DNA from: a virus
IMG/VR virus record: IMGVR_UViG_3300042465_006905
Span: 1 to 53,787 of that record
Strand: one strand, 5' to 3'
Length of the DNA: 53,787 bases
Below, one piece after another: positions 20,001 to 52,595 of this stretch. Numbering within the stretch: position 1 is the stretch's first letter; the number at the start of each line of letters is the position of its first letter. The translations under genes and the position numbers were made by a program. Under the pieces are notes generated by a model. It did not search any database. It was not told where the DNA came from and worked only from the letters and a program-made list of their open reading frames with translations.

Positions 20001-23000
20001 CCAATGTGGCATACAGTCCAAGTATAGGAGACATGACCACATGGGCCAACGTTGCTATTCCGGCCGGATATGCTGATCCAGCAACTTGTGTTGATTTGAT
20101 CAACACGGCAAAAATACCATTGGTAACTGCAACAACCACCGCAGATGGATTTTTTACAATCTCTACCACAAATAAAGTTGCAAATAACAAATTGTCTATA
20201 GTCAACAATGGATCGAACTTGTTTGACCTGGTTGGAATAACACCATATGGATTAGATCAAGTTATCGCTCATCCTGTTGGCTCAATTGGGTTTGGCTTTG
20301 CTAGTAGAATAAAGTATAGTCCAGAAACAGCAACATTGTTAGTTTCCAGCATTGAAGATGATGTGTACTACGAAGCTGAAATTGACGCAGGAAAAACTAC
20401 TTTTGATCAAAGAGCCACACGAGTGATAGATATTGTTAAATCATCGGGTAGCGTTTTTGTTTATGAATTGTTGTCGGACGCAGAAACAGGCACAAACAAC
20501 ACAGGTATAATGAGCTATGTACAACATATTAAATCAACAGGTCTAGGCAGCAATGATCAATTTGGTATCGGCCTAGACATTAATAAAGATTTGATCCTGG
20601 TTGGAGCGCCTGGCAACGACAGCATAGCACCAGGAGCAGGTGCGGTGCATGTGTATACAAACATGTCTCAGATACAGAGCTGGAACAAAATTCGATACCA
20701 AGAAGCCAAAGTTGACCTTGACAACATCAACAGATTCTTTATCTATGACAAAACGACAGAGTTAATTCGAACAACATTAGATTACATTGATCCAGTAAAA
20801 GGCAAGATACTAGGCATAGCTGAACAAGATTTGGACTTTAAGACAGCACTAGATCCTGCGGTGTACAATGCCGGCAACAGGACCAACATATCTAACAACA
20901 GCGGATTCCATTGGAATGAACGACAAGTTGGTAAACTGTGGTGGAATTTAAATGACTTGAGATATATCGACTACGAGCAAGGCGATTTAATTTATAGAAC
21001 TAACAATTGGGGTAAATTATTTCCTGGCAGCACAGTACAGGTGTGTGAATGGATAAAGAGTAAATTTCCTCCGGCACAATACATCATCAATGGCGGCGAT
21101 GGCGTACCATTATATACAAATGTATATTGTGTTGTTACCACTGTAATCGGCGGAGTAATTACTCCAGAGTATTATTATTGGGTCATTGACAAACAAAGTG
21201 CCGCACCAGGCAAACACTTTAGCGTTTCTATACTGTCAAACATTATAGAAAATCCACAATTACAAGGTATTCCGTATGGCTTTATGTCCAAGAATAACGC
21301 AATTGGCCTGGTCAATGTACAAAATTATCTAAATGCAGTGAATTCTGTTCTACACATAGACTATCAAAAGTTCTATAACGACAATAGTGTACATACCGAA
21401 TATGAATTGGTTAAGGAAGGCCAACCAAATATTCAACTCCCCACCAGAATTATTGACAAGTTGATTGATAGCCTGTCTGGAATTGATTCAATTGGACAAG
21501 TTGTGCCAGACCCAACGTTAACAGAATCTAACAAGATTGGATTAAATACCCGACCCGTGCAAACTTTAGTAATTGACAGATCAATGGCTGTGGAAAACTT
21601 TGTAAAATATGTCAACGGTGTACTGATCAAGTATCCCATTGTTTATCAATACAGCCTACTAGGAATAGAAAAAGTTGATCCCGTTCCGCCATCCACTGAA
21701 TATGATAAAGTTGTAACAACAGTTGAAGACATTGGATATATCGATACCAGGGCATCGATAGCAAATGCACTACCTGTTGGATATCGTGTATTGGTCACTT
21801 CGGATAGTTCCAACAGCGGGCTTTGGACAATCTATACCTTAGACAGTGACAGAGTATTTGTTATCAGTCGTATCCAGTATTACAATACTGCATTGTATTG
21901 GGACAAAGTTGATTGGTATGCAGAAGACTACGATCCAACCGGTCGTATCACTTATACCGTGACAGCATATAAAGATATTGCCACACTCACATTGGCCGCA
22001 GGCGATATTGTGCGAGTTAACTATGACGATAATGGTCAGTTCTCTATTTACAGAACAACCGCAGATTTAATACTGGAACGAGTTGGCATAGAAAACGGAA
22101 CCATACAGCTCAAATCCACCTTGTATAATCTAGCCGCAGGACAAATGGGATGGGACGAAGATCGATTTGACACTGTGCGATTTGATCAAACACCCAGTAT
22201 TGAAATTCGCAACATACTAACAGCTCTGCGTGATGATATCTTTATAGATTCACTGGGTGCAGAGTTCAATAAGTTATTCTTTATCATTGTTAATTATATC
22301 CTACAAGAACAAAAATCGGTTGATTGGATATTTAAAACCAGTTTTATTAGTATCTTCCACAACCTAAGAGAACTAAGTCAGCCACCTAGCTTTGTGTTGG
22401 ATAACCAAGAGTACTATCTTGACTACATCAATGAGGTCAAACCATACAGAACCATTGTGCGTGAGTATGTGGTTGACTACACAGGCTCAGACACAGTTGG
22501 TAGCAATGTGACAGATTTTGATTTGCCAAGTTTGTATAACAAAACACTGGGCAAGTATCGCCCACCGAGTGGTGAATTGAGTGGCGATACCACACTAATC
22601 AATATCACACCCGAATACCAATATTGGAAACAGTATCACACTTATACCATAGACACAATTGAAATCAGTAATCCCGGTACTGGTTATGTGATTGAGCCAT
22701 CGGTCACTGTCACTGGTGGTGGTGGTACTGGCGCAACAGCAACCGCGGCAATATGGGGCAATGGGGCAATCAGATCTGTTACAGTAACTAATAGCGGAAC
22801 CGGTTATACTTCTAGACCTGAAGTTAGAATCAACGGAACAGGCACAGGTGGCTTGGCTGCGGCACGAATCGTTAATCGTACAGCAAGACAATTTGATAGT
22901 GTATTGAAGTTTGACCGCACAGCATACGACTCTGATGTGTTATTGTGGACCAGCGCCAATAGTTATGCCTCTGGATCAGTGGTTGCCTATAACGGTCAAG

Positions 23001-29676: not shown

Positions 29677-31197
29677 ATGGCATATACAATAACAAATTCA
29701 GATGGAACAACCCTGGTATCAATTGAACCGGGTACAGCAAATTCCACTACCACTAGCCTTACCTTGGTGGGTAAAAACTTCCCTGGCTATGGACAATTCC
29801 TCAATGAAAATTTTATACAGTTATTGGAAAATTTTGCCAGTGGAACTGCCCCAGTAAATCCTCAAGAAGGACAGTTGTGGTGGGACAAAAACGATGCCGC
29901 CAACAAAGTTCTTAAAATTTACATGGGCTCGTCTGTGGGTTGGAAGCGTATCAGCGGTGCCACATCCGGTGGTACTAGACCAGACACCACATACGATAAC
30001 ACAGCCACAGGTGATCTTTGGTGGGACAGTTCTAACGCACAATTAAAAGTCAACAATGGTGGTGTCGGCGATGCTGGTTGGACAGTAATTGGACCTGCGT
30101 TCACTGCCACCACAGGCCAATCAGGTGCCATTGCAGATATTCTAAGTGATGGTACAGCCACTCATGTTATAGTTAAGTTTTTAATCAATAACAAATTAGC
30201 GGCAATTTTGAGCACAGACACAGCATTTACACCCAGTCCTGCATTGACATCAAGTGGATTCAGCACTATCAATCCTGGTATGAATTTGGCCGATGACGCC
30301 ATAGGTGGCACCTTAATTGGACTGAGATATTGGGGCAATGCAAACAATGCAGATTATTTAGGTGGTTCCGCCGCCGCTGTGTTTGCTAGATTGTCTGGCA
30401 CTTCGCCTTTTACCACAGCACAGAGTATTTCTACCAATAGTGGACTCACAGTGGGTGCCGCAAGTGATCTTACAGTATCAGTGGTGTCTGGAGCCGCACG
30501 AGTTACTAGCACAGTAACTGGTCAGAATTTGGATTTCTTTGCAAATGTCAGTGGTACACCAACTAGATTATTGACAGTGGGTGGTGATGGTACTGTAAAA
30601 ATCACAGCCAACACAGCATTAGGCACTACTACCAGTGTGGCAACCAAAAAATATGTTGACGACTCAATCACCGGATTAGGCCTAGGTGGAACCGGTGGCA
30701 ACACCACTTTTGGCGCTAACCTAGTACCAACTGCAAACTTAACATATAACCTGGGCAGTACAACCAGTTGGTGGAACAACATATATGGTACAAGTATTCA
30801 CGCACAGTATGCGGACGTTGCAGAACGCTTCGAAGCTGATGCGGTCATCATGCCCGGAACTGTGGTTGAATTGGGCGGGATCAAAGAAATCACCGCTGTG
30901 GTGGCAGAATTAAGCGAAAACATCCTTGGAGTCATAAGTACTAGAGCAGCCTATTTGATGAACAGCGGAGCTGGATCAGATAGTACACATCCACCAGTTG
31001 CGGTCAGCGGACGGGTTCCTGTTCGCGTTATTGGCCCAATTAACAAGGGTGACAGATTAGTAAGTGCCGGCAATGGATTGGCCAGAGCAGGCGCAAGAAC
31101 AGAAATTTCACCTTGGAATGTAATTGGGCGAGCATTGTCTAGCAAAACTACTCCAGGTGAGGGTATAATTGAAGCTACAGTAAAATTAAATTCGTAA
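29677..31197 (+). CDS. Tail fibre protein, two-module paralogue
   Basis: A 506-residue protein that combines modules of two neighbours. The N-terminal ~90 residues (TSLTLVGKNFPGYGQFLNEN; LLENFASGTAPVNP; EGQLWWDKND) match the shared docking-type module. A second GDLWWDSSNAQLKV unit follows near residue 110. The middle is beta-rich and Gly/Thr-rich. The C-terminal ~150 residues (YNLGSTTSWWNNIYG; AQYADVAERF; GTVVELGGIKEIT; GRVPVRVIGPINKGD) are paralogous to the C-terminus of the protein at 24,436-25,443. It therefore links the two fibre sub-families in this cluster. Its own late-promoter-like site may allow separate expression. Confidence 0.75.
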   Translation: MAYTITNSDGTTLVSIEPGTANSTTTSLTLVGKNFPGYGQFLNENFIQLLENFASGTAPVNPQEGQLWWDKNDAANKVLKIYMGSSVGWKRISGATSGGTRPDTTYDNTATGDLWWDSSNAQLKVNNGGVGDAGWTVIGPAFTATTGQSGAIADILSDGTATHVIVKFLINNKLAAILSTDTAFTPSPALTSSGFSTINPGMNLADDAIGGTLIGLRYWGNANNADYLGGSAAAVFARLSGTSPFTTAQSISTNSGLTVGAASDLTVSVVSGAARVTSTVTGQNLDFFANVSGTPTRLLTVGGDGTVKITANTALGTTTSVATKKYVDDSITGLGLGGTGGNTTFGANLVPTANLTYNLGSTTSWWNNIYGTSIHAQYADVAERFEADAVIMPGTVVELGGIKEITAVVAELSENILGVISTRAAYLMNSGAGSDSTHPPVAVSGRVPVRVIGPINKGDRLVSAGNGLARAGARTEISPWNVIGRALSSKTTPGEGIIEATVKLNS

Positions 31198-34167: not shown

Positions 34168-34456
34168 ACAACAACTTGAATATCGGTTGTACTACGATGC
34201 AAAGGGACGACCAACATGCATGGCCAGTCACGATTATCCAGCAGGTGATTATGTTGTTATTACCAAAGAGCAATATGAACGACCAAATTACAATGTGCGT
34301 GTACTGAATGGCACCATTGTGTTTGACACCCGAGACCATTTTCATGTACAATTAAAAAGAAGCAATACAGGTGTGGCTGTAGTACGAGGCCACGCTAGCC
34401 TTGTACTAGAAAATGATCATTACAAAGAAATAGAATACTATGACAGAAATAGTTGA
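34136..34456 (+). CDS. Small phage protein of unknown function
   Basis: A 106-residue protein. It is mostly beta, with RLYYDAKGRPTCMASHDYPA, then GDYVVITKEQYERPNYNVRV and a short LNGTIVFDTR strand. I recall similar small proteins next to glycosyltransferase-like genes in marine phages but know no function. ATG 34,136 is preferred to the TTG at 34,127. It overlaps the genes on both sides (32 and 17 bases). It has no signal peptide, membrane segment or catalytic motif that I can see. Confidence 0.5.
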   Translation: MSDELYQQFPKQQLEYRLYYDAKGRPTCMASHDYPAGDYVVITKEQYERPNYNVRVLNGTIVFDTRDHFHVQLKRSNTGVAVVRGHASLVLENDHYKEIEYYDRNS

Positions 34457-35339
34457 TGTAGCAGACTTAGATTGTGTATACCTAACTTATGATGAACCTC
34501 GACGAGAAGAATTTTGGGTACAAATTCAAAATCTTGTACCGTGGGCAAAGCGTGTGGACGGCGTTAAAGGAAGCGATGCCGCTCATAAGGCGTGTGCAGA
34601 TATTAGCGACACTGATAGGTTTGTTCTTATCGACGGCGATAATATTCCTGACAGCAATTTCTTCAATCTTCAATTAGAGCTCAACGACACCAATAGGGAC
34701 TGTGTGTTCCGTTGGAGAGCCCGCAATGCTATCAACGGCTTGATGTATGGCAATGGTGGCATGAGTTCATGGACAAAGGAATTTGTCTATGCCATGCGTA
34801 CACATGAAGCCACAGATGGCACTGCGGCCAATGATGTAGAATTTTGTTTCTATCCCAACTATTGGAGTATGTATGACTGCTACTCAACTACCTATCCTGA
34901 CGCCACCCCGTTCCAAGCCTGGCGTGCCGGCTTCCGCGAGGGTGTTAAGATGTCATTGGATCGCGGTGTTAAACCATCATTGGTTGAGTTTGAAAGTCGT
35001 GTAAACAATCGCAACTATGATAACTTGTGTATATGGCAAACAGTGGGCGCAGACAATGAAAACGGTGCCTGGGCCATAATGGGCGCACGACATGGCACAT
35101 TCAAGACCATGTTAACTGATTGGGCCTACACACAAGTGCAGAGTTTCGATGCATTACAGTCTATATGGGACGCAGAAGCAAAGCACACAGATGTAGTTGA
35201 CGAAGCACACAGCTATGGCGATCACATACGCCGGCGATTAGGATTGCCCATTGTAGATATGGATTCGGCAGAGAGTCGGTTCTTCAAACATCACTACATG
35301 AGCCAGTACAAAAATAAAGGACCAATGATCCGTGAGTAA
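34440..35339 (+). CDS. Phage glycosyltransferase-like protein (DGD motif)
   Basis: A 299-residue protein of a phage family with a GT2-like N-terminal fold: CVYLTYDEPRREEFW, then AKRVDGVKGSDAAHKACAD, and TDRFVLIDGDNIPD, which gives Asp65-Gly-Asp67 as a DxD equivalent. NAINGLMYGNGGMSSWTKEFV is also characteristic. The same features recur in the last unit of the protein at 50,337-52,595 (WVRGVDGRVAAYQEAARQSS; NGLEYGHMGMIAYNKRLV). Sugar and acceptor are unknown. The stop overlaps the GTG start of the first radical-SAM gene. Confidence 0.62.
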   Translation: MTEIVDVADLDCVYLTYDEPRREEFWVQIQNLVPWAKRVDGVKGSDAAHKACADISDTDRFVLIDGDNIPDSNFFNLQLELNDTNRDCVFRWRARNAINGLMYGNGGMSSWTKEFVYAMRTHEATDGTAANDVEFCFYPNYWSMYDCYSTTYPDATPFQAWRAGFREGVKMSLDRGVKPSLVEFESRVNNRNYDNLCIWQTVGADNENGAWAIMGARHGTFKTMLTDWAYTQVQSFDALQSIWDAEAKHTDVVDEAHSYGDHIRRRLGLPIVDMDSAESRFFKHHYMSQYKNKGPMIRE

Positions 35340-36717
35340 AAGTGATTTCATGTCTGCGGCTGAGCAGATGAAACAACAACTGGGTCCTGCACTTTGCCTT
35401 GCCAAATGGCAACAGGTAAGCCTACACTTGCCCACTGGTCTTAACAACAGTTGTTACCATCCACCATTGCATAAAATAGATGTTGAACCGTTGAAAGCAA
35501 ATCCCGGCGCACTACACAACACCGCTTATAAAAAAGAACAGCGGAAGATCATGATCCGTAACGAAAAACCCAGTGAGTGTAGTTACTGCTGGAATATTGA
35601 AAAGCACGATCAGCTTAGTGATAGACATTATCGGTCGGGTGAAAAGTGGGCCGTAGAACATTTTGATGCCATACAAAATTCCTCAGGAGATGAAGATGTT
35701 GTTCCAAGTTATGTGGAAGTTAATTTTAATCATGCTTGTAATCTCAAGTGTAGTTATTGTAGCCCCCAGTTTAGTAGCAGTTGGCAAGCAGAAGTTGACA
35801 AGTTTGGCGGATATCCTACTAGCGTTGTTCATAATGACCCTGCTCACTTTGTTGGTAGCCGGCGTCCTATACCCCATTCTCAACCCAACCCCTATGTAGA
35901 TGCCTTCTGGGAATGGTGGCCTGAACTGTACCCCAAACTAAAACACTTTCGCATGACCGGTGGTGAACCCTTGATGGATCGTAACACTTACAAGGTATTT
36001 GACTATGTGTTGGCCATGCCCAATCCCGAATTGCACCTAGATGTTACCAGTAACTTCAGTGTAGAAGATGCCTTGATGGACAAATACCTTGGCTATGTTA
36101 AGCAGTTATGTAACACACAAATTGAACACTTCATGCAGTATGTTAGCTTAGACTCGGGCAACTATGCTCATGCCGAGTATATTAGACACGGATTAAACTA
36201 CAATCGTGTGGTTGAAAATGTCAACATGTTCTTGAGAGAAATTCCATATCGTAACAGTTTGACATTTATCATTACAATGAACAATCTCAGTGTGTTGGGC
36301 CTACAACAACAATTAGATTGGATACTGCGGTTGCGTAAGAACCATAGCACAACATATCAGCGTGTGTGGTTCGACACACCATTGCTACGCACACCCCGGT
36401 GGCAGAGTTTACAAATCCTACCGGCTGTGTATGTACGGCAATTGGAGCGTGTAGCGGACTGGATGGAACTGAATTTGGAAACACCAGATCGACCATTTCA
36501 AGGATTCAAAGATTACGAACTACAGCGTATGCGTCGCGATATTGCCTGGATGGAAGAAGGTCGCAATCTAGATCCTGAATATATTAAAATGCAAAGAGCA
36601 GACTTTTATCGGTTCTTCAATGAACACGATAAGCGTCGCCATACCAACTTTGAAGAAACATTTCCGCAAATGACGGAATTTTGGAAAGAATGTAGATACC
36701 ATGCCCAAAATAGTTAA
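35332..36717 (+). CDS. Radical SAM protein with N-terminal Cys cluster (1)
   Basis: A 461-residue protein. The radical-SAM CxxxCxxC motif is at Cys136, Cys140 and Cys143 (HACNLKCSYC), followed by RMTGGEPLMD, the GGEP motif that contacts SAM. An N-terminal region has further cysteines (LCLAKW, NNSCYHPP, ECSYCW) that may bind an auxiliary iron-sulphur cluster like SPASM or twitch domains, but placed before rather than after the core. It is a close paralogue of the next protein: SC+HPP, NPxAxHNT and CxYCWxIE are shared. Such proteins are annotated in marine phages without known substrates. GTG 35,332 overlaps the upstream gene by 8 bases; ATG 35,350 is an alternative. Confidence 0.8.
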   Translation: MSKSDFMSAAEQMKQQLGPALCLAKWQQVSLHLPTGLNNSCYHPPLHKIDVEPLKANPGALHNTAYKKEQRKIMIRNEKPSECSYCWNIEKHDQLSDRHYRSGEKWAVEHFDAIQNSSGDEDVVPSYVEVNFNHACNLKCSYCSPQFSSSWQAEVDKFGGYPTSVVHNDPAHFVGSRRPIPHSQPNPYVDAFWEWWPELYPKLKHFRMTGGEPLMDRNTYKVFDYVLAMPNPELHLDVTSNFSVEDALMDKYLGYVKQLCNTQIEHFMQYVSLDSGNYAHAEYIRHGLNYNRVVENVNMFLREIPYRNSLTFIITMNNLSVLGLQQQLDWILRLRKNHSTTYQRVWFDTPLLRTPRWQSLQILPAVYVRQLERVADWMELNLETPDRPFQGFKDYELQRMRRDIAWMEEGRNLDPEYIKMQRADFYRFFNEHDKRRHTNFEETFPQMTEFWKECRYHAQNS

Positions 36718-38062
36718 CGAAACAGATTTAGAATACAAGCACAGAGTAATCGACATCAAGTCAGCCAGTTTCTGTGGAGCCAAATGGTACAATGCCACCA
36801 TTTGGCTAGGATCGGGCCAGACAACCAGTTGTCATCATCCTTTGCCGCATGCCATTGATCGAGATGAAATTAAAACCAATCCCAAGGCAATTCACAACAC
36901 ACAAAAGAAAAAAATGGAGCGTGAGCAAATGCAAAAGGGTGAGCGTCCCGCAGGTTGCGAATACTGTTGGAAGATAGAAGATATTAAAACAGATCCTTTC
37001 CCTGCCGCTATCAGTGATCGTGTTTATAAAACCGTAATATACAGTGACGAGGATCTAGCCCATGCACATAGAACACCTGCCAGCGAAGATGTCGATCTTC
37101 AAACGCTTGAAATTGCTTTTGATAGAACTTGTCAGTTTGCTTGTAGCTATTGTAACCCTGCTTTCAGTAGCACTTGGGTTAAAGATATTAAACAGCATGG
37201 ACCCTACACCAACCTGGTTAGTGACGGCAGGAACCATTTTACTCATGCTCATGATAGCAGTCAACTTTATAAATTTGGTGAAGTTAATCCGTATGTGGAA
37301 GCATTCCATAAATGGTGGGAAACAGATCTCCACAGAACCTTAAAGGAACTACGCATCACCGGCGGAGAACCCTTGATGAGTGCAGAGACTTGGAAACTAA
37401 TTGACTGGTTCAAAACAAACAAGGGTAAAAGCACTACTCGCTTGGCCATTAACAGTAACTTGGGCACTGATGTCGACATTGATCGCTTGCTAGACAGCAT
37501 TGACGGTGTTGAAGTTGACCTATACACCAGTAACGAAAGTATGAGCCTACAGGCAGAATATATTCGTGACGGGCTTGTGTTTGATGACTGGGCCAACAAT
37601 GTAGAACGCTTATTAGACTCAGGTCGGTTCCGTGGCATACATGTCATGGCAACCGTTAACGCATTGTGTTTAGACAGCCTAGACAGCTTTTTGGAAATGG
37701 TTATGAATTGGAAACGCGAGTATGGCAAAGATGCTGTTAACTTTTCGCTAAATATATTGCGCTTCCCAAGTTTTCAATCACTCACAGTACTACCCAAAGA
37801 TATCCGCCTGACCTATCACAACCGACTACATGACTTTGTCAACGGTTATAGACACGGCACAGAGATGCATGAATTTGAATGGAATCAATTATCACGACTG
37901 CTGAGTTATATTACTGAAGTAAGCGAAGCACACAAAGAAGCCATGTCTCAAACAATATTGCAACGCGACTTTAAAAACTTTTATCAACAATACGATCAGC
38001 GTCGAAACAAAAACTTCGCAGAAACATTTCCTGCATTAGCAGATTGGTATGATATGATATGA
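36701..38062 (+). CDS. Radical SAM protein with N-terminal Cys cluster (2)
   Basis: A 453-residue paralogue of the preceding protein. It has the core motif at Cys144, Cys148 and Cys151 (RTCQFACSYCNPAFSSTW) and RITGGEPLMS. The N-terminal auxiliary cysteines are FCGAKW, TSCHHP and GCEYCWKIE, with KTNPKAIHNT matching the KANPGALHNT segment of its neighbour. The two genes overlap by 17 bases. The ATG lies just before the upstream stop. The next gene overlaps by 4 bases (ATGA). The reaction is not predictable from sequence; members of the wider SPASM/twitch group modify peptides, sugars or proteins. Confidence 0.8.
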   Translation: MPKIVNETDLEYKHRVIDIKSASFCGAKWYNATIWLGSGQTTSCHHPLPHAIDRDEIKTNPKAIHNTQKKKMEREQMQKGERPAGCEYCWKIEDIKTDPFPAAISDRVYKTVIYSDEDLAHAHRTPASEDVDLQTLEIAFDRTCQFACSYCNPAFSSTWVKDIKQHGPYTNLVSDGRNHFTHAHDSSQLYKFGEVNPYVEAFHKWWETDLHRTLKELRITGGEPLMSAETWKLIDWFKTNKGKSTTRLAINSNLGTDVDIDRLLDSIDGVEVDLYTSNESMSLQAEYIRDGLVFDDWANNVERLLDSGRFRGIHVMATVNALCLDSLDSFLEMVMNWKREYGKDAVNFSLNILRFPSFQSLTVLPKDIRLTYHNRLHDFVNGYRHGTEMHEFEWNQLSRLLSYITEVSEAHKEAMSQTILQRDFKNFYQQYDQRRNKNFAETFPALADWYDMI

Positions 38063-39144
38063 TAAGTATTAGACATTTTGGATATTTTAATATACCACCA
38101 CATGGAGTAATTGATAACATATTAGGAAAACTAGAATTTAATCGCCCAGCAATATTTTTTATAATTGACCCGTTGACAGGTGAAGAACTTCCCTATGATG
38201 AAATGAAATTATTAGACAAAGATAATTTGTTTGTGATAGTTCACACCGGAGAAGGACATTCGCATTTAGAATTTGATATTCTTTTAAATCAGTTGTTGAA
38301 TATTGTTGGTGTTGTTCCCTCCCATATAACTTTATATACTGGATGTTTGTATGATCCACAAAGTCCAGTTAACAGTATAGGAACTATTGTTCCGCATTGC
38401 GGTGTAACTGTATCTTCAATCACACAGCATTTTATCAACTATCCAACAACACACCATTATGTATGTTTAAATAGATTACCTAGATGGGAAAGAGAAGAAA
38501 TAGTTACTGCATTACTTGATCGTAAAATAGATATGTATGGAAAAATTTCTTTTGCCTCAGCATTTACAAAAAATGAATACAGGCAGAAATTTAAAACTGA
38601 CAAAAGATACCGTGATAATTTTCCTTTGTATTTAGATGGAGTGCTTAAAAACATCAATCAAAGTTTTCAAATCGAAGACCAAAGTATAACAGGAGCTTTG
38701 TTTAATGTAGTTACAGAAAGCTCGTATGAAATAGTAGATAAATTATACATGTCTGATGATTCTACTCAAGAAACTATAACTGGACAATCGTTGCCTGTAT
38801 TTTCAGAAAAACTGTATAAATCATTTTTAGTTGGGCAAATTCCCATATTAGTAAGTCCATATTATACTGTTAATGTTGCTAGAGAGTTTGGGTTTGACAT
38901 GTTTGATGACATAATAGACCATGGTTACGATTTAGAAAAAGACGCAATCAAACGAATTCAATTGATAGCAGATCAAGTTGAAAAAATTTGTAATATGAGC
39001 ATACAGGATCTTGTTGCCTTAAAAGAAAAAATCATGCCCAGGTTAATAAAAAATTATAATCGTGTACACCATTGGGCATTTAATATAGATGGAGATTTGC
39101 CTCGTTGGGAAAAATATTTTAGACAACTTGGCGTGTTGGCATGA
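38059..39144 (+). CDS. Glycosyltransferase-like protein in an AT-rich gene
   Basis: A 361-residue protein. Its C-terminal half resembles fucosyltransferase-like enzymes: FNVVTESSYEIVD (Glu220), FSEKLYKSFLVGQIPILVSP (Ser249-Glu-Lys251), and GFDMFDDIIDHGYD. The inverted gene at 49,154-50,338 has the same landmarks (Glu251; TEKTFKP; DESYD), and both have an aromatic-x-x-NRL strand earlier. The nucleotide-sugar donor would bind around the E...EK region. The gene is far more AT-rich than its neighbours: two 60-base lines counted 17 and 16 G+C, against 30 in a line of the upstream gene. It overlaps by 4 bases at both ends, so if transferred it has been precisely integrated. Confidence 0.58.
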   Translation: MISIRHFGYFNIPPHGVIDNILGKLEFNRPAIFFIIDPLTGEELPYDEMKLLDKDNLFVIVHTGEGHSHLEFDILLNQLLNIVGVVPSHITLYTGCLYDPQSPVNSIGTIVPHCGVTVSSITQHFINYPTTHHYVCLNRLPRWEREEIVTALLDRKIDMYGKISFASAFTKNEYRQKFKTDKRYRDNFPLYLDGVLKNINQSFQIEDQSITGALFNVVTESSYEIVDKLYMSDDSTQETITGQSLPVFSEKLYKSFLVGQIPILVSPYYTVNVAREFGFDMFDDIIDHGYDLEKDAIKRIQLIADQVEKICNMSIQDLVALKEKIMPRLIKNYNRVHHWAFNIDGDLPRWEKYFRQLGVLA

Positions 39145-39968
39145 AACCAACTCTACCCTTCCTTGAAACAATGGCCACACAGGTATGTAACCTTAGTTGT
39201 AGTGGGTGTACCAACTACAGCGATTTACCACATCAGGGCTATGTTAGATGGACGGACATGGAACAAGATTTGACTGCTTGGTTGCAGGTAATGGATATTG
39301 CTGATTTTGGTATTATGGGCGGAGAACCATTGATCAATCCTGAGATACGCGAATGGTTGTATGGCGTAAGAGGTTTGATGCCACAAAGTCAAATACGATT
39401 TACTACCAATGGTTTGTTATTGAATCGACATTTTGATGTGCTGGATATAGCTCATGAAGTTGGTAATACGGTATTTAAAATTACAGTACATACTCCGGGG
39501 TCAGAAATTGAATCAGTAATACAACAGATATTTGACAAGTACAATTGGGAACCAGTCATTGAACATGGAATACAACGCTGGCGCACCACAAACAATTTGC
39601 GTTTTCAGATCAATCGCCCCGTTCAGTTTGTGAAAAGTTACAAAGGTGTGTATAATAACATGAGACCGTATGACTCTATTCCTGCAGAGAGTTTTGGTGC
39701 TTGCATTCAACAAACATGCCCATTGTTGTACAAAGGTAGAATTTACAAGTGTAGCACACAGGGACTATTGAAAGAAACATTGGCAAAAGTGGGAGATCCC
39801 AATTTAACAGAGTGGAAACCCTACTTGGTAGATGGTATTGGAGTAGATGACATTGATGATATTGATCATTTCGTGTCGAATTTTGGTAAGCCTGCGGCAG
39901 TGTGTCGTATGTGCCCAAGCAAACATAATCTAGACGCATTTATTATACACAAGGCAGAATTAAAATGA
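39141..39968 (+). CDS. Radical SAM protein, SPASM-like C-terminus
   Basis: A 275-residue protein, the smallest radical-SAM member here. The core motif lies right at the N-terminus: Cys16, Cys20, Cys23 (QVCNLSCSGCTNYSD), then FGIMGGEPLINP and RFTTNGLLL. Unlike the other four, extra cysteines are C-terminal (FGACIQQTCPLLYKGRIYKC and VCRMCPSKH), the usual SPASM/twitch placement. The N-terminal 10 residues and first strand match standard activating-enzyme-like radical-SAM folds. It overlaps both neighbours by 4 bases (ATGA). Substrate unknown. Confidence 0.8.
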   Translation: MKPTLPFLETMATQVCNLSCSGCTNYSDLPHQGYVRWTDMEQDLTAWLQVMDIADFGIMGGEPLINPEIREWLYGVRGLMPQSQIRFTTNGLLLNRHFDVLDIAHEVGNTVFKITVHTPGSEIESVIQQIFDKYNWEPVIEHGIQRWRTTNNLRFQINRPVQFVKSYKGVYNNMRPYDSIPAESFGACIQQTCPLLYKGRIYKCSTQGLLKETLAKVGDPNLTEWKPYLVDGIGVDDIDDIDHFVSNFGKPAAVCRMCPSKHNLDAFIIHKAELK

Positions 39969-42490
39969 CAGACAAACTAGACAACTATTACGAAAACTAC
40001 AACTACGGTGCCCGTACGCCTGTATATATGAAACAAGAAGAAATGCGTCCCGAACAATGGGACCGGTTGATCAAAACCAACAACTTCTGCATGATCCCGT
40101 GGATCCACATGCATGCCTTTCCGGATGGTCGTGCATATCCTTGTTGCCTAGGCGATCCAGACCACAGTGTGGGCAATCTTAAAACGCACACCATGAAAGA
40201 GATTTGGAATCAAGACCCTCTTAAACAGATGCGATTGAATATGCTGGAAGACAAGTCTTGTAAGGAGTGTACCAAGTGCATTGAGCAAGAGCGCAGTGAA
40301 CTGTTTAGTATGCGTAACAGTAGCAACAAGAACTTTGGACACCTGATCAATCTAGTAGATGAAACCAATTCAGATGGCAGCCTCAACGACTTTAAACTAC
40401 GCTACTATGATGTGCGTTTTAGCAACATCTGTAACTTTAGTTGCCGTAGTTGCGGTAGCCTGTTTAGTAGCAGTTGGCATCGTGACGAAAAGGCAGCTGG
40501 GTGGAATCCACAGCATCCACAGATCATGTTTGCCGGCAAAACCAAAGATGACATGTGGAATCAAATGCAAGAGCATATTCCACATCTGGAACAGATCTAT
40601 TGGGCAGGCGGTGAACCACTAATCATGGAAGAACACTATCGTGTACTGCGTGAACTAGTTGATCGCAAAATGTTTCATGTGCGACTAATCTACAATACCA
40701 ACTTCAGCGAAATGAAATTCAAAGGCCAGGATGTAATGGAACTTTGGAAACTGTTTGACTGTGTTAGTGTTGGAGCCAGTTTAGATGCCAGTTACCACCG
40801 TGGAGAGTATATGCGTAAAGGACAAGACTGGAAGCAAACAGTTGAAAACCGCGAGCGTATGCTTAAAGTATGTCCCAATGTAGACTTCTATGTCAGTTCG
40901 ACTGTTAGTCTAATGAATGTTATACACATTCCGGACTTTCATCAAGAATGGGTTGATCTAGGCCTACTGCGCCCAATGGATTGGAACATCAATATGTTGC
41001 AACATCCATTGCGTTATCGTGTAGACGCCCTGCCACCCAACTTGAAACGCCAAGCTCGTGATCGCATTGAAGAACATCTCGAATGGCTTGAACCCCTAGA
41101 CACCTTGACTCGTGCAACATCAGGTTACAAGGGTGTGTTAAACTTTATGGAACACAATGATAGTACAGCATACTTGCCTGACTTCTTTAAGGTCAACGAC
41201 TTGATTGATCGAGTGCGTAGCGAAAGTTTCTTTGAAACTTTTCCAGAGTTGATGGAAATGAAAAACTACAAGTTACCACAGACCATGTGTATGCTTCCTT
41301 GGGTCAGCATTGAAACTAGTCCGGTTGGTAGTGCCCGTCCTTGCTGTTTGGCCACAGACGAAGTCACAGACGAGTCAGGCAACAAGTATGACATGAATAA
41401 ACATACTGTGACTGAAATATACAACAGCAAGTACATGCAGGACCTGCGTCGAACATTCCGCGAAGGCAACAAACCTGCTACTTGTACTCGTTGTTGGGAA
41501 GAAGAAGATGCAGGCCGTACCAGCAAGCGTATGCACACACTAACAAGATTTAAAGAACGATATGCAGAAGTAGATTGGGAAAATGACAAACCTAATCAAC
41601 TTTGGTTCTTGGATTTAAAACTGGGTAACATCTGCAACTTGAAATGTCGTATCTGCGGCTCCTGGTCAAGCAGTAAATGGGTTCCGGAAGAAATGGACTA
41701 TATTAAGAGCCGTGGTGGTGATCCTAAAAAGCATATTGCCTACACCTGGCTCAAACAAGGCAACTGGCCTCGTAACGAAAACAGTCCGCGTTTTTGGGAA
41801 GACTTAAAAACAATCCTTCCACAGGTCAAATACTTTGAATTCACCGGAGGCGAACCTTTTATGATTCAAGAACATTTTAACCTGTTGAAGTTTGCTGTAG
41901 ATAACGGATATGCAGACAATATCGAAATACACTACAATACCAATGGTACTCACTTTCCAGAAGAGTTTATTGATACATGGAAAAAGTTTCGCAAGGTAGA
42001 AATTGCATTTAGTATTGACAATACCGGTGAACGCTTTGAGTTTGAACGCTCAGGTGCCAATTGGACTGAAGTAGAAGCAAACATCCAACGCTTCCATGCC
42101 ATGAAAAGGGATTGGCCTAAACTACGCACACAAGTCTGCATGACCATCAATGTACAAAATGTGTTATACTTGGAAGATCTGTGCAAGTGGGTAATACTGC
42201 AAAACTTTGATTACGATTACTTCAATATGATGCATGATCCCAAACACATGAATATTGGCTCAATGACAGAAGAAGCAAAAGCACTAGTAATTGACCGTTT
42301 AACCACCGGGGACTTTATCCCTCGCCACCGCAAAGAAATAGATCGTATTATTCAATTTATTAAAAACGGAACAACATTAGACAATGCACAGTTCTTAAAA
42401 GAGATGCAACGCACCGATGCTTATCGTGGTGAGAATTTTGCAGAAACACACACTGATATTGCTCGTGCAATGGGCTATGACAAAACCTGA
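39965..42490 (+). CDS. Tandem double radical SAM protein
   Basis: An 841-residue protein built from two complete modules. Module 1 (~30-420) has auxiliary cysteines NFCMIPW, YPCCLGDP and CKECTKC, the core motif at Cys156, Cys160, Cys163 (NICNFSCRSC) and YWAGGEPLIM. Module 2 (~440-841) repeats the layout with TMCMLPW, RPCCLATD, TCTRCWEEE, the core at Cys557, Cys561, Cys564 (NICNLKCRIC) and EFTGGEPFM. Each module also has an EIWN or EIYN helix. Both appear intact, so the protein may carry out two radical reactions or act on repeated sites. The next gene encodes a single module of the same type, suggesting duplication and fusion. Confidence 0.82.
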   Translation: MTDKLDNYYENYNYGARTPVYMKQEEMRPEQWDRLIKTNNFCMIPWIHMHAFPDGRAYPCCLGDPDHSVGNLKTHTMKEIWNQDPLKQMRLNMLEDKSCKECTKCIEQERSELFSMRNSSNKNFGHLINLVDETNSDGSLNDFKLRYYDVRFSNICNFSCRSCGSLFSSSWHRDEKAAGWNPQHPQIMFAGKTKDDMWNQMQEHIPHLEQIYWAGGEPLIMEEHYRVLRELVDRKMFHVRLIYNTNFSEMKFKGQDVMELWKLFDCVSVGASLDASYHRGEYMRKGQDWKQTVENRERMLKVCPNVDFYVSSTVSLMNVIHIPDFHQEWVDLGLLRPMDWNINMLQHPLRYRVDALPPNLKRQARDRIEEHLEWLEPLDTLTRATSGYKGVLNFMEHNDSTAYLPDFFKVNDLIDRVRSESFFETFPELMEMKNYKLPQTMCMLPWVSIETSPVGSARPCCLATDEVTDESGNKYDMNKHTVTEIYNSKYMQDLRRTFREGNKPATCTRCWEEEDAGRTSKRMHTLTRFKERYAEVDWENDKPNQLWFLDLKLGNICNLKCRICGSWSSSKWVPEEMDYIKSRGGDPKKHIAYTWLKQGNWPRNENSPRFWEDLKTILPQVKYFEFTGGEPFMIQEHFNLLKFAVDNGYADNIEIHYNTNGTHFPEEFIDTWKKFRKVEIAFSIDNTGERFEFERSGANWTEVEANIQRFHAMKRDWPKLRTQVCMTINVQNVLYLEDLCKWVILQNFDYDYFNMMHDPKHMNIGSMTEEAKALVIDRLTTGDFIPRHRKEIDRIIQFIKNGTTLDNAQFLKEMQRTDAYRGENFAETHTDIARAMGYDKT

Positions 42491-43775
42491 TACATTATGC
42501 ATGGCGCCGTGGACGCACACATATCTAAGCCCGCAAACTGAGCGTAGAATGTGTTGTGCGTCACGAGAACCCGCACAAAACTTTCAGCAATATATTGACA
42601 CTGCCGCTGGTACTGGTAAGTATATCCCTATAACTTTAGAAGAACATTGGAATAGTGATCATATGCGGAGTGTGCGACAGCGCATGATGGCCGGAGAAAC
42701 GTTATCCGAATGCGAAGTATGCAATGATCAACTGTTGAATACCAGTGTTTACCGTAGTTATTTTAATCAGTTGTTTGAACATAAGTACAATGAGGCGATG
42801 GCGAATACTACCGAGGACGGCAGTACAACCATGCTTCCGGTATCGTGGGACTACAGGTTTAGCAACCTGTGCAACTTCAAATGCCGTATGTGTGGAGACA
42901 TGTTAAGCAGTGCTTGGGAAACCGAGCAACGGCAACACGGCATGATCGATTGGGCCAATCCGAAGAATAATTGGATGCGGCCTGAAATTAAGAAAGACAT
43001 AGAAGGTTTTCAGCAACGACAGATAGAATGGGAATTTGAAAAAGCTGTCGAGGAACACCGTGTTGAAGAAGTATATTGGGTTGGTGGCGAGCCACTCATG
43101 TACGAGCAACATTGGAGATACATGACCCGTATAATAGAATTAGGAGATGGTCACAATGTTTACGCTCGTTACAACACCAACTTATCTAGAGTTGATTACA
43201 AAGGTATCAATCTGTATCGCGATATTCTCAGCAGGGTTCGTGATTGGCAGATATGTGCAAGCCTTGATGGCACGGAACAGATTGGCGAGTACATTAGAAC
43301 TGGTCTTGTCTATTCTCAGTGGCTTGAAAATTTCAGTAAGGCAATTGAGATCCGACGTAACAGTCGTCAAGTCAGAATTGACTTCACGCTCACTTTGCCC
43401 GGAATGTTCGAAGTTACACGCATTGAACAACTTGCACAAGAATTTGGAGTCGAAGTCCTTGCCAAAGTAATTTTTAGTTTTAGCCCGGACATAGTTATGA
43501 GCCCGTTAGCACTACCCAGAGAAATTTTACATCCTTGGGTAGACGAAACTATTAACCAGATGCAACATTCTGGCGCTCTACGGGACATACTTGTCCAGCT
43601 AAAAACTAGACCTACTTTTGCGGAGCAGTGGCCTGATGAATATCAGGCAGCCATTGCACGGGGTAAAGCTCGCGTGTTAAAATTAGAACAGATTAGAACA
43701 CAAAGTGTAACAATGACAGATATACTGGGTGCCCGTCCCGATGTACTCAAATGGTGGATGCAAATTGAAAGTTGA
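42477..43775 (+). CDS. Radical SAM protein, single module
   Basis: A 432-residue relative of each half of the preceding tandem protein. Auxiliary cysteines are TLCMAPW, RMCCASR and CEVCND; the core motif is at Cys132, Cys136, Cys139 (NLCNFKCRMC) and is followed by YWVGGEPLMYEQHW. ATG 42,477 (MTKPDTLCMAPW) was chosen because it places the FCMIPW-like motif at the N-terminus as in the relatives; an upstream TTG at 42,417 would lengthen the overlap to 74 bases. The chosen start overlaps the tandem gene by 14 bases. Confidence 0.78.
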   Translation: MTKPDTLCMAPWTHTYLSPQTERRMCCASREPAQNFQQYIDTAAGTGKYIPITLEEHWNSDHMRSVRQRMMAGETLSECEVCNDQLLNTSVYRSYFNQLFEHKYNEAMANTTEDGSTTMLPVSWDYRFSNLCNFKCRMCGDMLSSAWETEQRQHGMIDWANPKNNWMRPEIKKDIEGFQQRQIEWEFEKAVEEHRVEEVYWVGGEPLMYEQHWRYMTRIIELGDGHNVYARYNTNLSRVDYKGINLYRDILSRVRDWQICASLDGTEQIGEYIRTGLVYSQWLENFSKAIEIRRNSRQVRIDFTLTLPGMFEVTRIEQLAQEFGVEVLAKVIFSFSPDIVMSPLALPREILHPWVDETINQMQHSGALRDILVQLKTRPTFAEQWPDEYQAAIARGKARVLKLEQIRTQSVTMTDILGARPDVLKWWMQIES

Positions 43776-48940: not shown

Positions 48941-49157
48941 GTATCACATTAGATTCAATACCAAACATAATGGATCAGATCTAGTTTGGCGCATATTTGA
49001 AAACGGTGTGGAACATCTGGCAAAGGATGTTAGACTAGTTGGCGAAACATTCACTGAATGTACACATGAGCATGGCGAGACCAAATGGAACATTGCCTGC
49101 TATGGCAGACTGGTGTGGGAAGACACCGTAGCAGTAATTGTCACAGACAAAGATTAA
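48933..49157 (+). CDS. Small conserved-looking phage protein
   Basis: A 74-residue protein, TTG start, beginning MNKYHIRFNTKHNGSDLVWR and continuing IFENGVEHLAKDVRLVGE and KWNIACYGRLVWED. It resembles small proteins of unknown function in cyanophage-type genomes (as recalled: an RFNTKH-like start, WR.FENG.E core, and KWNI.C ending). The TTG overlaps the upstream stop by 8 bases. The stop codon is in the loop of the terminator-like inverted repeat and overlaps the end of the opposing gene by 4 bases. It is the last gene of the plus-strand operon. Confidence 0.62.
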   Translation: MNKYHIRFNTKHNGSDLVWRIFENGVEHLAKDVRLVGETFTECTHEHGETKWNIACYGRLVWEDTVAVIVTDKD

Positions 49158-49167
49158 GTCTGTGACA
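49139..49167. terminator. Bidirectional terminator-like inverted repeat
   Basis: TGTCACAGAC (49,139-49,148) and GTCTGTGACA (49,158-49,167) form a perfect 10-bp stem with a 9-base loop. The stop codons of both convergent genes lie in the loop. No T tract follows on either strand, so it may act as a bidirectional pause or an RNA-processing or stability hairpin rather than a full intrinsic terminator. Confidence 0.5.
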
Positions 49168-50338
49168 CAACAGATTGGTAACGATCTGCTCTCGGGATAT
49201 TATATTGTTGTAATACCGGAGCAGACTCTACAGCCTCTTTTAAATTAGTTGTTAGTTCTTGCCAGGCCAGGTTCACAAACTCTGGACTATTGAACAGTTT
49301 GAAATTGTGTTCTAGTACTGGCTCCATTTCGTGCAACATGGCAGTTAATTGACCCAATGTCAAACTAGATATGTATTCAACAATGTTGGCTACCGCTTGT
49401 AATCGTTGCACTGGATCTTCAATATGATCGTAACTTTCATCCCACCATTGGTCAAATGTTTGAAATCCATAGCTCTTAAAGTATTCTAAATTATGAGCAC
49501 AGCCCACTAGTACAAACGGTTGTTTAAGTATAACAGGTTTAAAGGTCTTTTCAGTTAAGTGACACTTTCTTTCCCAATAACAAGTTTCTGTGATAACATG
49601 TAGAAATGTTTCCATGCATTGATCTACTGCACTCAATACCATGCTGTTGTTGGGGATGGCATCTTTTTCTGGATAGTCTATACGCAACGGGTGTGCCAAA
49701 TGATCCAGCTGTTGTTTGATTTGATCTATGTATGTAGGGTCTATGTTGTATTCAGTAACAGCATAATCTAAGGCGGTGCTGTAGTGCCCATGTTCGGGAC
49801 ACTGATCACTGTAACTAACATAACCACTGCCAATAAGATTTCGTTTGGCCAACTCTCCTACAAATAAACTTCTATAAACTCTGGCGTTGCCTGTTAATCT
49901 GTTAAATGTAATATACTTTTTTCTAATAGTTCGTTTTGTTACTGGCAATATTGTTGAATCAAATTGATAACCGCGGAACCAATCATGCGCGGCAAATATA
50001 TGAAAGAATCCATAACAAGGTATAAAGTCGTATTTTTCAACAAAGTAATCTAGTGCGTCACTGTTGCGTTCTGTGGTAACTAATATTACAGGCCTCATGA
50101 GATTCCTGGCTTTTCGAAACACACAGCCAAATAGCAAATCGTTGTAGCCTTGGTACAACGGTTCCTGATCGTAACATAACACAATAGGATCTCGATCAAG
50201 ACTTTCGTCTGTGTCTAGTACTTCTATGTTTTCGAGCGAACTGGCACCAAATGGATATAGATATTCTAACCGGGGTTGTGTTATAATAGTTTTTAAAAAA
50301 CTAAAAAGATTAAAATAATGACTGTGGATATTGTACAT
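49154..50338 (-). CDS. Inverted glycosyltransferase-like gene
   Basis: A 394-residue protein, the only recognisable gene on the minus strand. PIVLCYDQEPLY and YITFNRLTGNARVYRS lead into a C-terminal half with FLHVITETCYWE (Glu251), LTEKTFKPVILKQPFVLVG (Thr262-Glu-Lys264), and GFQTFDQWWDESYD. These are the landmarks of fucosyltransferase-like enzymes and are shared with the protein at 38,059-39,144, though the N-termini differ. Its stop faces the operon end, with a 4-base overlap. Its ATG is within 2 bases of the start codon of the divergent gene at 50,337, so its promoter must lie inside that gene; none was evident. The orientation suggests a separate insertion. Confidence 0.65.
   Translation of the reverse strand: MYNIHSHYFNLFSFLKTIITQPRLEYLYPFGASSLENIEVLDTDESLDRDPIVLCYDQEPLYQGYNDLLFGCVFRKARNLMRPVILVTTERNSDALDYFVEKYDFIPCYGFFHIFAAHDWFRGYQFDSTILPVTKRTIRKKYITFNRLTGNARVYRSLFVGELAKRNLIGSGYVSYSDQCPEHGHYSTALDYAVTEYNIDPTYIDQIKQQLDHLAHPLRIDYPEKDAIPNNSMVLSAVDQCMETFLHVITETCYWERKCHLTEKTFKPVILKQPFVLVGCAHNLEYFKSYGFQTFDQWWDESYDHIEDPVQRLQAVANIVEYISSLTLGQLTAMLHEMEPVLEHNFKLFNSPEFVNLAWQELTTNLKEAVESAPVLQQYNIPRADRYQSVVSQT
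50279..50287 (+). promoter_or_regulatory. Candidate extended -10 promoter
   Basis: TGTTATAAT is a consensus -10 box with the TGn extension. No -35 match is present at the right distance. It lies within the inverted gene on the opposite strand, about 50 bases before the plus-strand gene at 50,337, and could drive it. Confidence 0.4.
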
Positions 50339-52595
50339 GTTTGATGTGTTTTACTCGGGACCAAAACCCAATCGGTTTGCGTTTGAGCGTCCTGCTGACT
50401 CTCTTGAACATGCGGCTAGTCTAAGCCGAACTGGATACTATTGGTATATTTATGGTGGCAATGATTACACCGACTTTGATTTCTCATTTGAGCCTGCTCC
50501 GTGGGAAAGTGATCAGGTACATGTGTTTCCCAGCCAATGGCAACCGGATGGCGGAGTGTATCTAGCAAATAAAGATACTGTGCATACCAAGCAATGGCAT
50601 TTTAGAACTGAACAGACAGTAACTAGAAAGCCACCAAATAATTTGTTAGACCATTGGCATATACCAGAGGAAGTTAATCGAGATGTTGTGGACTTTAGTT
50701 GGCATCCAAATCCCCTGGATCCACCTTACATATATCATTTTGGGTCAGACTATCAAGTCAGTGTTGGCCTAACATACACTGTCGACAATGCTACAGAAAT
50801 TAAATTTGCAGGACCTGTGCCTGGCACAGACAACCCATTAGAAGTCTTAGATATATTTTTTATTGATCGCTGTAACCCGTTATCACAACCACGGTATGAC
50901 AGACTGGCCGAACGCCATACTGTTACCAAAGTGAGATATGCCAACAGCATAATGGATACAGTACGCAGATGTATCACACGGGCTAAAACAAACAAATTTT
51001 GGATTATCAGCAGTGAATATGATTACAGCAACTTTGACTTTGCTTGGCATGCTGAGCCTTGGCAAAACTTTATGACACATGTATTTCCTAGTCAACATAA
51101 CCGATGGAGTGACACATTCTTAATTAACCGTTGGGAGTTTGAGCGACACAGTGAATGGGCCAATGGTCTAGAAGAGTTTCCTAATTTGAATTTTGTAACT
51201 AATCAGAGGGTGACTAAAACAGAAAACCTGCACAACATCTATTATGTAGATCATACCAACCCTGAAAGTCAAATTCAGTACAAGTTATTAAAGAAATTTG
51301 AACCAGATATTATTCTAACTCGCTTTGCTAACAGTTACCTTGATACAATGAAGCGTATTATGAGTATAGCAGACACTGAATATGTTTGGATAATAAACAG
51401 TGTTTGCAATTATGACTTCTTTGATTTTACTTGGCAACCAGAACCGTGGCAACGAGAAATGATACACTGTTTTGCCAACAGTAATGGACTTTGTGATTGT
51501 CCGCGTGGTGATACATTTTACATTCATGTTGAATCGTTTCGGAAACAAATGGTTGAGCTTGAGTTACTAGATTGGTTCAATGTAATCAACTATAATAATT
51601 TTCCTTCTGTACAACGCTGGCCCACTCCTGTAGTATATTATGAAACAGATAATTTAATAGAAGCTGTACAAAAACATAAATTTGAGACTCCGTATGCGTT
51701 GTTTACCAATCAAAAGGATATTTTGGATCCGTTGGGAAGTAGCACTTGTCTGTGGAGTGATAAAGACCGTGTAACAATAACATTTACACGCAGTCGAGCT
51801 ACTGCATTGGTACCCAGGGAAATAAAACGCTATTTAAAGACGCAAATCTACGATTATCCTTACCTGGAGAAGGAGAATTCACAGGATTTCTTTGCCGAGA
51901 AGCCGTTAGATATTGTGTACATCAGCAACGGCGAACCCGATGAACAACGTTATTACAACAACTTGGAAGATGATGTTTATGGTAATCCTTTAAGAGATCC
52001 TAGACATCGTATCAAATGGGTGCGTGGTGTTGATGGGCGAGTTGCCGCATATCAAGAGGCCGCTAGACAAAGCTCAACCGACTGGTTCTTTGCTGTGTTT
52101 GCAAAACTGGAAGTAGACTGTGTTGATTGGGCCTGGCAACCCGACTATTGGCAACAGCCCAAACACTATATCTTCAATGCCCGCAATCCTGTTAACGGAT
52201 TAGAGTATGGACACATGGGCATGATTGCTTATAATAAGCGGTTAGTGTTGGCAAACAATGCGCCTGGCATTGACTTTACCTTGAGTCAGCCACATGAAAG
52301 TGTACCCATACTGAGTGGAACAGCACATTTTAATCAAGATGCTTGGACCACTTGGCGCACAGCATTTAGGGAAGTGCTGAAATTGCGATTGTTTATGGAG
52401 ACACAACCCACTGTAGAAACCGAGCACAGGCTCGCAACTTGGCTATCAACAGCCCAAGGTAATTACAGCAATTATTGCTTGGCAGGTGCTAGAGATGCTG
52501 TAGAATACTACGAATCTGTTGCGGGAGACGCTGATAAACTGCAACTCAGCTTTGATTGGCGGTGGCTCCGGGATAAGTATGACGCTAAATACTAA
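50337..52595 (+). CDS. Repeated glycosyltransferase-like protein (752 aa)
   Basis: A 752-residue protein built from repeats. A unit of about 100 residues ends in a Y/FxxFDFxWxPxPWQ...HVFPSQ pattern: DYTDFDFSFEPAPWESDQ (~43-60), VVDFSWHPNPLDPPYIYHF (~116-134), DYSNFDFAWHAEPWQNF (~227-243), NYDFFDFTWQPEPWQRE (~358-374) and DCVDWAWQPDYWQQP (~600-614). The last unit matches the DGD-type glycosyltransferase at 34,440 (VRGVDGRVAAYQEAARQ; NGLEYGHMGMIAYNKRL). Acidic metal-site motifs are blurred in the earlier copies, so some units may only bind. ATG 50,337 is preferred to TTG 50,331. It is tightly followed by the next gene (no gap). Confidence 0.55.
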   Translation: MFDVFYSGPKPNRFAFERPADSLEHAASLSRTGYYWYIYGGNDYTDFDFSFEPAPWESDQVHVFPSQWQPDGGVYLANKDTVHTKQWHFRTEQTVTRKPPNNLLDHWHIPEEVNRDVVDFSWHPNPLDPPYIYHFGSDYQVSVGLTYTVDNATEIKFAGPVPGTDNPLEVLDIFFIDRCNPLSQPRYDRLAERHTVTKVRYANSIMDTVRRCITRAKTNKFWIISSEYDYSNFDFAWHAEPWQNFMTHVFPSQHNRWSDTFLINRWEFERHSEWANGLEEFPNLNFVTNQRVTKTENLHNIYYVDHTNPESQIQYKLLKKFEPDIILTRFANSYLDTMKRIMSIADTEYVWIINSVCNYDFFDFTWQPEPWQREMIHCFANSNGLCDCPRGDTFYIHVESFRKQMVELELLDWFNVINYNNFPSVQRWPTPVVYYETDNLIEAVQKHKFETPYALFTNQKDILDPLGSSTCLWSDKDRVTITFTRSRATALVPREIKRYLKTQIYDYPYLEKENSQDFFAEKPLDIVYISNGEPDEQRYYNNLEDDVYGNPLRDPRHRIKWVRGVDGRVAAYQEAARQSSTDWFFAVFAKLEVDCVDWAWQPDYWQQPKHYIFNARNPVNGLEYGHMGMIAYNKRLVLANNAPGIDFTLSQPHESVPILSGTAHFNQDAWTTWRTAFREVLKLRLFMETQPTVETEHRLATWLSTAQGNYSNYCLAGARDAVEYYESVAGDADKLQLSFDWRWLRDKYDAKY

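Follow-up and report, generated by a model that had tools for sequence, protein, structure and literature searches.

What kind of protein is encoded at positions 50337-52595 (+ strand) of the virus record IMGVR_UViG_3300042465_006905, and is it an enzyme? This single IMG/VR record of 53,787 bases, which as a whole is called the window here, carries baseplate wedge genes close to its left end. The open reading frame (ORF) in question encodes 752 residues from an ATG at 50337, the mechanically assigned start being a TTG at 50331. The protein has no match in Pfam or NCBIfam, its best PHROGs match (E 0.33) is at chance level, and sequence searches of the PDB returned no match for it or for its family. 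The initial annotation proposed several degenerate glycosyltransferase (GT)-like units, five copies of an FDFxW...HVFPSQ motif and perhaps a single active site. Profile comparison and structure prediction resolve the 752-residue protein into a series of linked units that share homology with a GT-A-type glycosyltransferase-like domain.

The five FDFxW copies proved to be real. A hidden Markov model (HMM) of a 65-residue repeat was seeded with 28 modules from the repeat arrays of relatives; the seed was restricted to array modules, with none from a GT-like unit or from the window, so that matches to GT-like units are not circular. This model matched all five FDFxW sites of the protein, at residues 36-71 (1.8e-5), 105-159 (9.6e-23), 217-255 (2.9e-5), 350-382 (1.2e-5) and 585-615 (7.7e-4), with E-values set for 100 sequences. 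The best of 19 matches to shuffled family proteins was 0.41, and the best among 1,178 distinct neighbour proteins was 0.065; for the latter control, we started from 1,486 proteins and removed 84 that carried motif patterns of the family, most of them family members, and then duplicates. Profile-profile comparison with hhalign joined the same five segments, named S1 (residues 1-104), S2 (101-166), S3 (166-296), S4 (296-437) and S6 (521-752). The pairwise E-values, computed with no database, were 5.5e-37 for S3-S4, 2.1e-22 for S1-S3, 8.7e-11 for S1-S2 and 3.7e-10 for S3-S6; the weakest pairs were S1-S6 (5.8e-5) and S2-S6 (0.0018, probability 15%).

These comparisons delimit the following parts, all on the + strand. 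Unit 1 (residues 1-104, 50337..50648) is GT-A-like and has a short beta-alpha start followed by the FDFxW...HVFPSQ core, with YGG at the position of the DxD motif, the usual metal-ligand place. The mini-unit (residues 105-166, 50649..50834) is a 65-residue fragment, present here in a single copy and in relatives as arrays; within a full unit, its counterpart is the portion beginning at the strand that precedes the DxD position (hhalign, S1 35-75 with S2 6-46). Unit 2 (residues 167-296, 50835..51224) and unit 3 (residues 297-437, 51225..51647) are again GT-A-like, with SSE and NSV, respectively, at the DxD position. A conserved linking segment (residues 438-520, 51648..51896), for which sequence homology to the units was not detected, leads to the C-terminal GT-A-like unit (residues 521-752, 51897..52592). 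The predicted secondary structure of residues 437-522 resembles that of a unit, but the profile comparison was negative and we do not claim a further unit there. Thus all five proposed units are related, but one of them is only a fragment.

The predicted structure agrees with a repeated architecture. AlphaFold2, run with 41 sequences (alignment A1, the window protein and 40 relatives), gave a mean predicted local distance difference test score (pLDDT) of 88.2 and a predicted template modelling score (pTM) of 0.67. In VIA alignments, MobA, IspD-type proteins and beta-1,4-galactosyltransferase aligned with residues ~168-298, covering unit 2, at Z 9.4 to 10.7, and several glycosyltransferases and nucleotidyltransferases aligned separately with residues ~520-673 at Z up to 11.0. 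Because GT-A-type structures align separately to two regions, the prediction supports repeated units and not a single fold. Foldseek ranked the two-domain chondroitin polymerase K4CP first (E 1e-6); TM-scores over the whole chain were low (0.15-0.18). The units are thus predicted to have the GT-A (Rossmann-like alpha/beta/alpha) fold, a fold that by itself is also found in nucleotidyltransferases such as IspD and MobA. Two of the 41 members of A1 match a PHROGs nucleotidyltransferase family, at best with 9.6e-4.

Does any unit keep an ordinary active site? The obvious candidate is the last, which the initial annotation had likened to the protein at 34,440. This likeness held up. The same phage encodes, at 34440..35339 (+), a paralogous single-unit GT-like protein with DGD at residues 65-67, and the last unit is homologous to it (BLASTP 4e-11; hhalign 1.7e-20 over 189 columns, most of the domain). 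D65, G66 and D67 are invariant in 24 aligned sequences of the 34,440 family; the 34,440 protein itself has a sub-threshold Pfam match to Glyco_tranf_2_3 (E 0.11), and only chance-level matches were obtained when its family was compared with the PDB by sequence. In the 752-residue protein, F588-A589-K590 (52098..52106) aligns with this DGD, the register being taken from an ungapped stretch of the pairwise alignment. We collected 117 distinct proteins or fragments, the window protein included, 113 of which cover the last unit. A589 and K590 are present in 113/113, and position 588 is F in 110 and P in 3; the protein of locus L265 has VPAK in the same motif.

Apart from this swap, the last unit is strongly conserved. 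We followed up 18 of its residues, picked for their conservation in A1, and 17 were identical in at least 111 of the 113 sequences, F588 being the remaining one. W583, N617, L622, Y624, G625, D646 and H653 are found in all 113, H610, W673, R674, F677, R678, E679 and K682 in 112, and N620 in 111. Eleven positions, N617, N620, L622, Y624, G625, W673, R674, F677, R678, E679 and K682, are identical to invariant residues of the 34,440 family, and D646 aligns with an invariant Glu of that family. D646 and H653 are candidates, by conservation, for the xED catalytic base and the C-terminal His. The unit has no DxD, and its conserved K590 and K682 might be basic residues in contact with a diphosphate, as in metal-independent GT-A enzymes. 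In sequence, the C-terminal unit is the most enzyme-like part of the 752-residue protein.

The motif swap bears directly on the idea that the protein is an ordinary, metal-dependent glycosyltransferase whose one active site is in the last unit, the other units being scaffold. Homology of the last unit to the DGD protein speaks for such an enzyme, but the replacement of DGD by x-A-K in 113/113 distinct sequences contradicts it at that very site, and we consider it very improbable. If the last unit is catalytic, it would not act by the usual metal-bound mechanism. Of the single-active-site proposal, then, the repeated GT-A-like units stand in profiles and prediction, but an ordinary site in the last unit does not.

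The blurred acidic motifs noted in the earlier units recur across the 41 aligned members. Canonical DxD occurs in 0/41 members in unit 1, 0/28 ungapped rows in unit 2 (one of these 28 rows being a misaligned module), 0/41 in unit 3 and 0/41 in the last unit. The triads of unit 1 are YGG in 24 members, DGQ in 4, DGH in 2, DGN in 1 and others; unit 2 has SSE in 21 of the 28 rows without gaps, and unit 3 has NS or SS followed by V, I, L or T. We read the partial D-G-x triads of unit 1 as probable remnants of DGD. Since DGH is kept in unit 1 of 2/41 members and DxH is reported for GT27 and GT60 in the accessible part of PMC7185993, metal binding by unit 1 might persist in a few relatives, a point in favour of the metal-dependent enzyme.

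The complete lack of canonical DxD suits another explanation, in which all units are pseudo-enzymes and the protein is a catalytically dead scaffold or chaperone that binds, stabilises or positions active phage glycosyltransferases such as the 34,440 protein. COSMC, which serves T-synthase in this way, offers a model: according to the accessible part of PMC7185993, this GT31 member without DxD and xED acts as a scaffold and chaperone. A possible client is at hand, since a DGD paralogue is encoded in the same phage and also in contigs with a relative of the repeat protein (e.g., IMGVR_UViG_3300010885_054974 and IMGVR_UViG_3300025358_000004). Against it, the C-terminal unit is conserved as strongly as an enzyme, and a scaffold role does not by itself explain the variable array described below. 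We regard a dead scaffold as somewhat unlikely.

A search for homologues with different unit counts was strongly positive, with 0 to 27 modules in complete proteins. In the sequences inspected, the 65-residue modules follow unit 1 and precede the later units. With a module counted if it scored over 35 bits, 0 to 22 were present per protein in a first set, which comprised 74 distinct proteins whose C-terminal end was intact (a few of these being cut at the 5' end, e.g., L138). A later scan with an array as query added 43 relatives, and 99 complete distinct proteins ranged from 546 to 2389 residues in length, with 0 to 23 modules. Additional to the 99 is the protein of L265, which was completed from its own record and has 27 modules in 2593 residues with the C-terminal head present. 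The distribution of counts is not that of a random sample: loci with the best pattern matches came first, and arrays were the target of the last scan. The period was 61-70 residues, mostly 63-68, in the 22 arrays listed. A regular period together with copy number that varies between relatives identifies the arrays as tandem repeats. The C-terminal unit is present in 91 of the 94 proteins with at least two modules, L265 included, and the remaining three (L089, L264 and L276) reach the contig end. A second subfamily, whose proteins start with MLRDVFY (L257, L263, L267, L272, L274, L277, L280 and L265/L292), was also seen; of the 10 complete proteins in the set of 99 that have at least 16 modules, 7 belong to it, and so does the 27-module protein.

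How fast the arrays change was estimated from pairs of related proteins. Module counts differed in 0/5 pairs at 95% core identity or above, 1/5 at 90-95%, 5/9 at 85-90% and 10/16 at 80-85%; L138, cut at the 5' end, is a partner in one of the last 10, and four proteins in which no core start was recognised were excluded. The proteins of L130 and L131 share 93% core identity and have 7 and 3 modules, respectively. Modules 1, 2 and 7 of L130 are nearest to modules 1, 2 and 3 of L131, indicating that the difference in count is internal. Neighbouring modules were 92% identical in DNA in L133 and 89% in L143, and the other adjacent pairs examined were below 80%. Errors in the assembly of repeats may affect array lengths. 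To judge from these comparisons, module number changes quickly in evolution.

The array was also modelled alone. For four modules of L070, with 27 aligned windows out of a set (A4) of 28 four-module windows with little overlap, the prediction had a pLDDT of 94.0 and a pTM of 0.76, and three strands per module were predicted. Foldseek gave no PDB match below E 2.4 and VIA no match at Z 2 or above among 17 chains only, so this lack of a match does not show a new fold.

Rapid change in module copy number, together with the conserved aromatic residues that the array modules hold, would also be expected of a virion glycan-binding adhesin or fibre, that is, an aromatic-rich multivalent rod that reads host surface sugars and whose copy number tunes reach and avidity. 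The gene lies downstream of the baseplate and tail-fibre-like genes on the same strand. The nearest tail-fibre-like gene (29677-31197), however, is ~19 kb away with many sugar-type genes between, the 752-residue protein matches no tail family, a hydropathy scan found no membrane segment, and the C-terminal unit shows enzyme-like conservation. An adhesin seems to us quite unlikely.

The conserved last unit with its motif swap, the decayed motifs elsewhere and the expandable array fit best with a protein that handles glycans in a phage sugar-modification locus, its GT-derived head being independent of metal and its arm adjustable. We prefer this reading tentatively, giving it somewhat less than an even chance. 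The conserved C-terminal residues would line a pocket of the head, which probably accommodates a nucleotide sugar or glycan with Lys590, in place of a metal ion, at the diphosphate; the head may also still transfer sugar. The decayed units and the module array may form a multivalent arm of adjustable length that holds the growing glycan or acceptor. The substrate could be supplied by the surrounding phage sugar genes, including a carbamoyltransferase, radical SAM proteins, a DegT aminotransferase, an NAD-dependent epimerase and other GT-like proteins, and the glycan may be destined to decorate the virion or the host surface. A related proposal concerns the origin of the array: a fragment of the GT domain, comprising the DxD loop with the strand that precedes it and those that follow, may have been cut loose and amplified into an expandable repeat rod of a new kind, topped by the conserved GT-derived head in which lysine replaces the active-site metal. 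We consider this possible but doubtful. Metal independence as such has precedents, because GT14 and bacterial GT6 are, in the accessible parts of PMC3961637 and PMC7185993, GT-A enzymes active without DxD by means of basic residues.

Several points weigh against the glycan-handling protein. No curated GT model in Pfam, PHROGs or NCBIfam matches the 752-residue protein, and the 41 members of A1 gave scattered weak matches to 6 Pfam and 10 PHROGs families (E up to 0.1), among them 5 to Kri1 and 5 to Caps_syn_GfcC_C and none to a GT model. The hhalign alignment places a one-residue gap beside the F588-A589-K590 triad. The proposed role of Lys590 has no exact precedent in GT14 or bacterial GT6, in which the diphosphate-contacting basic residues are near the C terminus, as far as described in the accessible part of PMC3961637. 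Loss of DxD would equally be seen in a dead protein with a purely structural role. The putative functional tie to the adjoining sugar genes is one of proximity.

These sugar genes recur around relatives. We compared 80 contexts (68 distinct by longest protein), with more than 2.5 kb upstream in 71 and downstream in 71. Relatives of window proteins were found as follows: the carbamoyltransferase (46275) in 68 contexts, the kinase/adenylyltransferase-like protein (48089) in 62, the divergent 49154 protein in 60, the 43729 and 45662 proteins in 59 each, the radical-SAM-like 42417 protein in 56 and the 44825 protein in 52. Relatives of proteins of locus L109 were likewise frequent: DegT aminotransferase in 70, NAD-dependent epimerase in 67, thymidylate synthase in 63 and dihydrofolate reductase in 58. 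The 45662 protein matches DUF6071, and we take it and the 44825 protein to be SGNH-like from their motifs. By proximity, the locus of the repeat protein is a sugar-modification setting.

Other features of the window may be recorded here. The divergent neighbour gene (49154..50338, - strand) encodes 394 residues without a Pfam match, and the CATG at 50336-50339 contains the start codons of both this gene and the repeat-protein gene. Among 74 starts examined, identical contigs included, 58 had a minus-strand gene of more than 200 residues within 400 bp, and 56 of these 58 had the exact CATG overlap, leaving no room for an intergenic promoter. The proteins of 38059-39144 and 49154-50338, encoded on opposite strands, have a segment in common (E 2e-9, residues 249-333 and 262-346), and neither has a Pfam match. 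Five radical-SAM-type genes lie within ~8 kb at 35332-43775: the 35332 and 39141 proteins match Pfam Radical_SAM, and the 36701, 39965 and 42417 proteins are similar to 35332. Both halves of the 841-residue protein of 39965-42490 are similar to 42417, and it looks like a tandem fusion. At L095 and L103, the repeat-protein gene is followed immediately, on its own strand, by a gene for 414 residues that is weakly similar (22-23%) to the radical-SAM-like 39965 protein. Three related virion or tail-fibre-like proteins (26157, 28502 and 29677) are preceded by a single ORF of 4447 residues (11090-24433).

The family is common in phages, with at least 564 relatives among the 600 pattern stretches listed in one scan. 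Among predicted viral structures, two homologues from uncultured Caudovirales phage, both labelled 'Uncharacterized protein', were A0A6J5L5L5 (1076 residues) and A0A6J5LK21 (804 residues), with 44% and 52% identity in the Foldseek alignments. In an annotated phage collection there was no relative at E up to 1e-5; at E up to 10 the sole match was a 9% one (E 0.7) and was rejected. With an array as query the collection gave Stenotrophomonas phage Yut3 (E 0.6), which we treated as chance because a six-frame scan with the module and head models gave at best 0.27 and 1.9. In cellular genomes, 0/52 pattern stretches were relatives by tblastn, no separate search for modules being made there. The Moraphages were considered as a lineage, and no link was established from the accessible part of PMC12619734. 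The parts of the protein are of a known kind, the GT-A superfamily and tandem repeats. As the initial annotation suspected, we found no description of the family, its architecture, the combination of its parts or the amplified domain fragment in the open-access literature, most subscription papers being outside this coverage. A widespread phage family without a name offers a clear case of an enzyme-like domain part turned into a fast-expanding repeat. Its invariant lysine at the DxD metal-ligand place bears on whether a GT-A domain becomes metal-independent by a change in the motif itself, and, if a domain fragment was indeed amplified into a rod topped by such a head, repeat number would set the reach or chain length of a phage glycan machine.

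How does this protein compare with known systems? Its module is a piece of a glycosyltransferase-like unit, unlike the BACON domain of crAss-like phages, which is unrelated to it. Tandem BACON repeats nevertheless provide the likeness of a phage protein with tandem carbohydrate-associated domains, whose copy number has been studied, according to the accessible part of PMC6949934. GT14 C2GnT-L and the bacterial GT6 BoGT6a resemble the predicted head in having a GT-A fold without DxD and, in the parts of their descriptions available to us, basic residues that handle the diphosphate; these residues are near the C terminus, whereas the invariant Lys of the repeat protein, the activity of which is predicted only, lies within the DxD position itself. 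For COSMC we know of no counterpart of the repeat array. The likeness there, again from the accessible part of PMC7185993, is that COSMC (C1GALT1C1), a GT31 pseudo-enzyme, is a GT-A relative that lost its catalytic motifs. The viral three-domain glycosyltransferase A111/114R of PBCV-1 is likewise a virus-encoded chain of several GT domains; according to the accessible part of PMC7826918, in which a repeat array is not mentioned, its three domains differ, functions have been proposed for them and domain 2 has a DxD-type motif. The E. coli K4 chondroitin polymerase (K4CP, PDB 2z87/2z86) shares with the 752-residue protein the presence of several GT-A domains per chain. K4CP is bifunctional and has two GT-A domains with a DSD motif, as described in the same part of PMC7826918, whereas the 752-residue protein has more units, no canonical DxD and, in its relatives, an array of 65-residue fragments.

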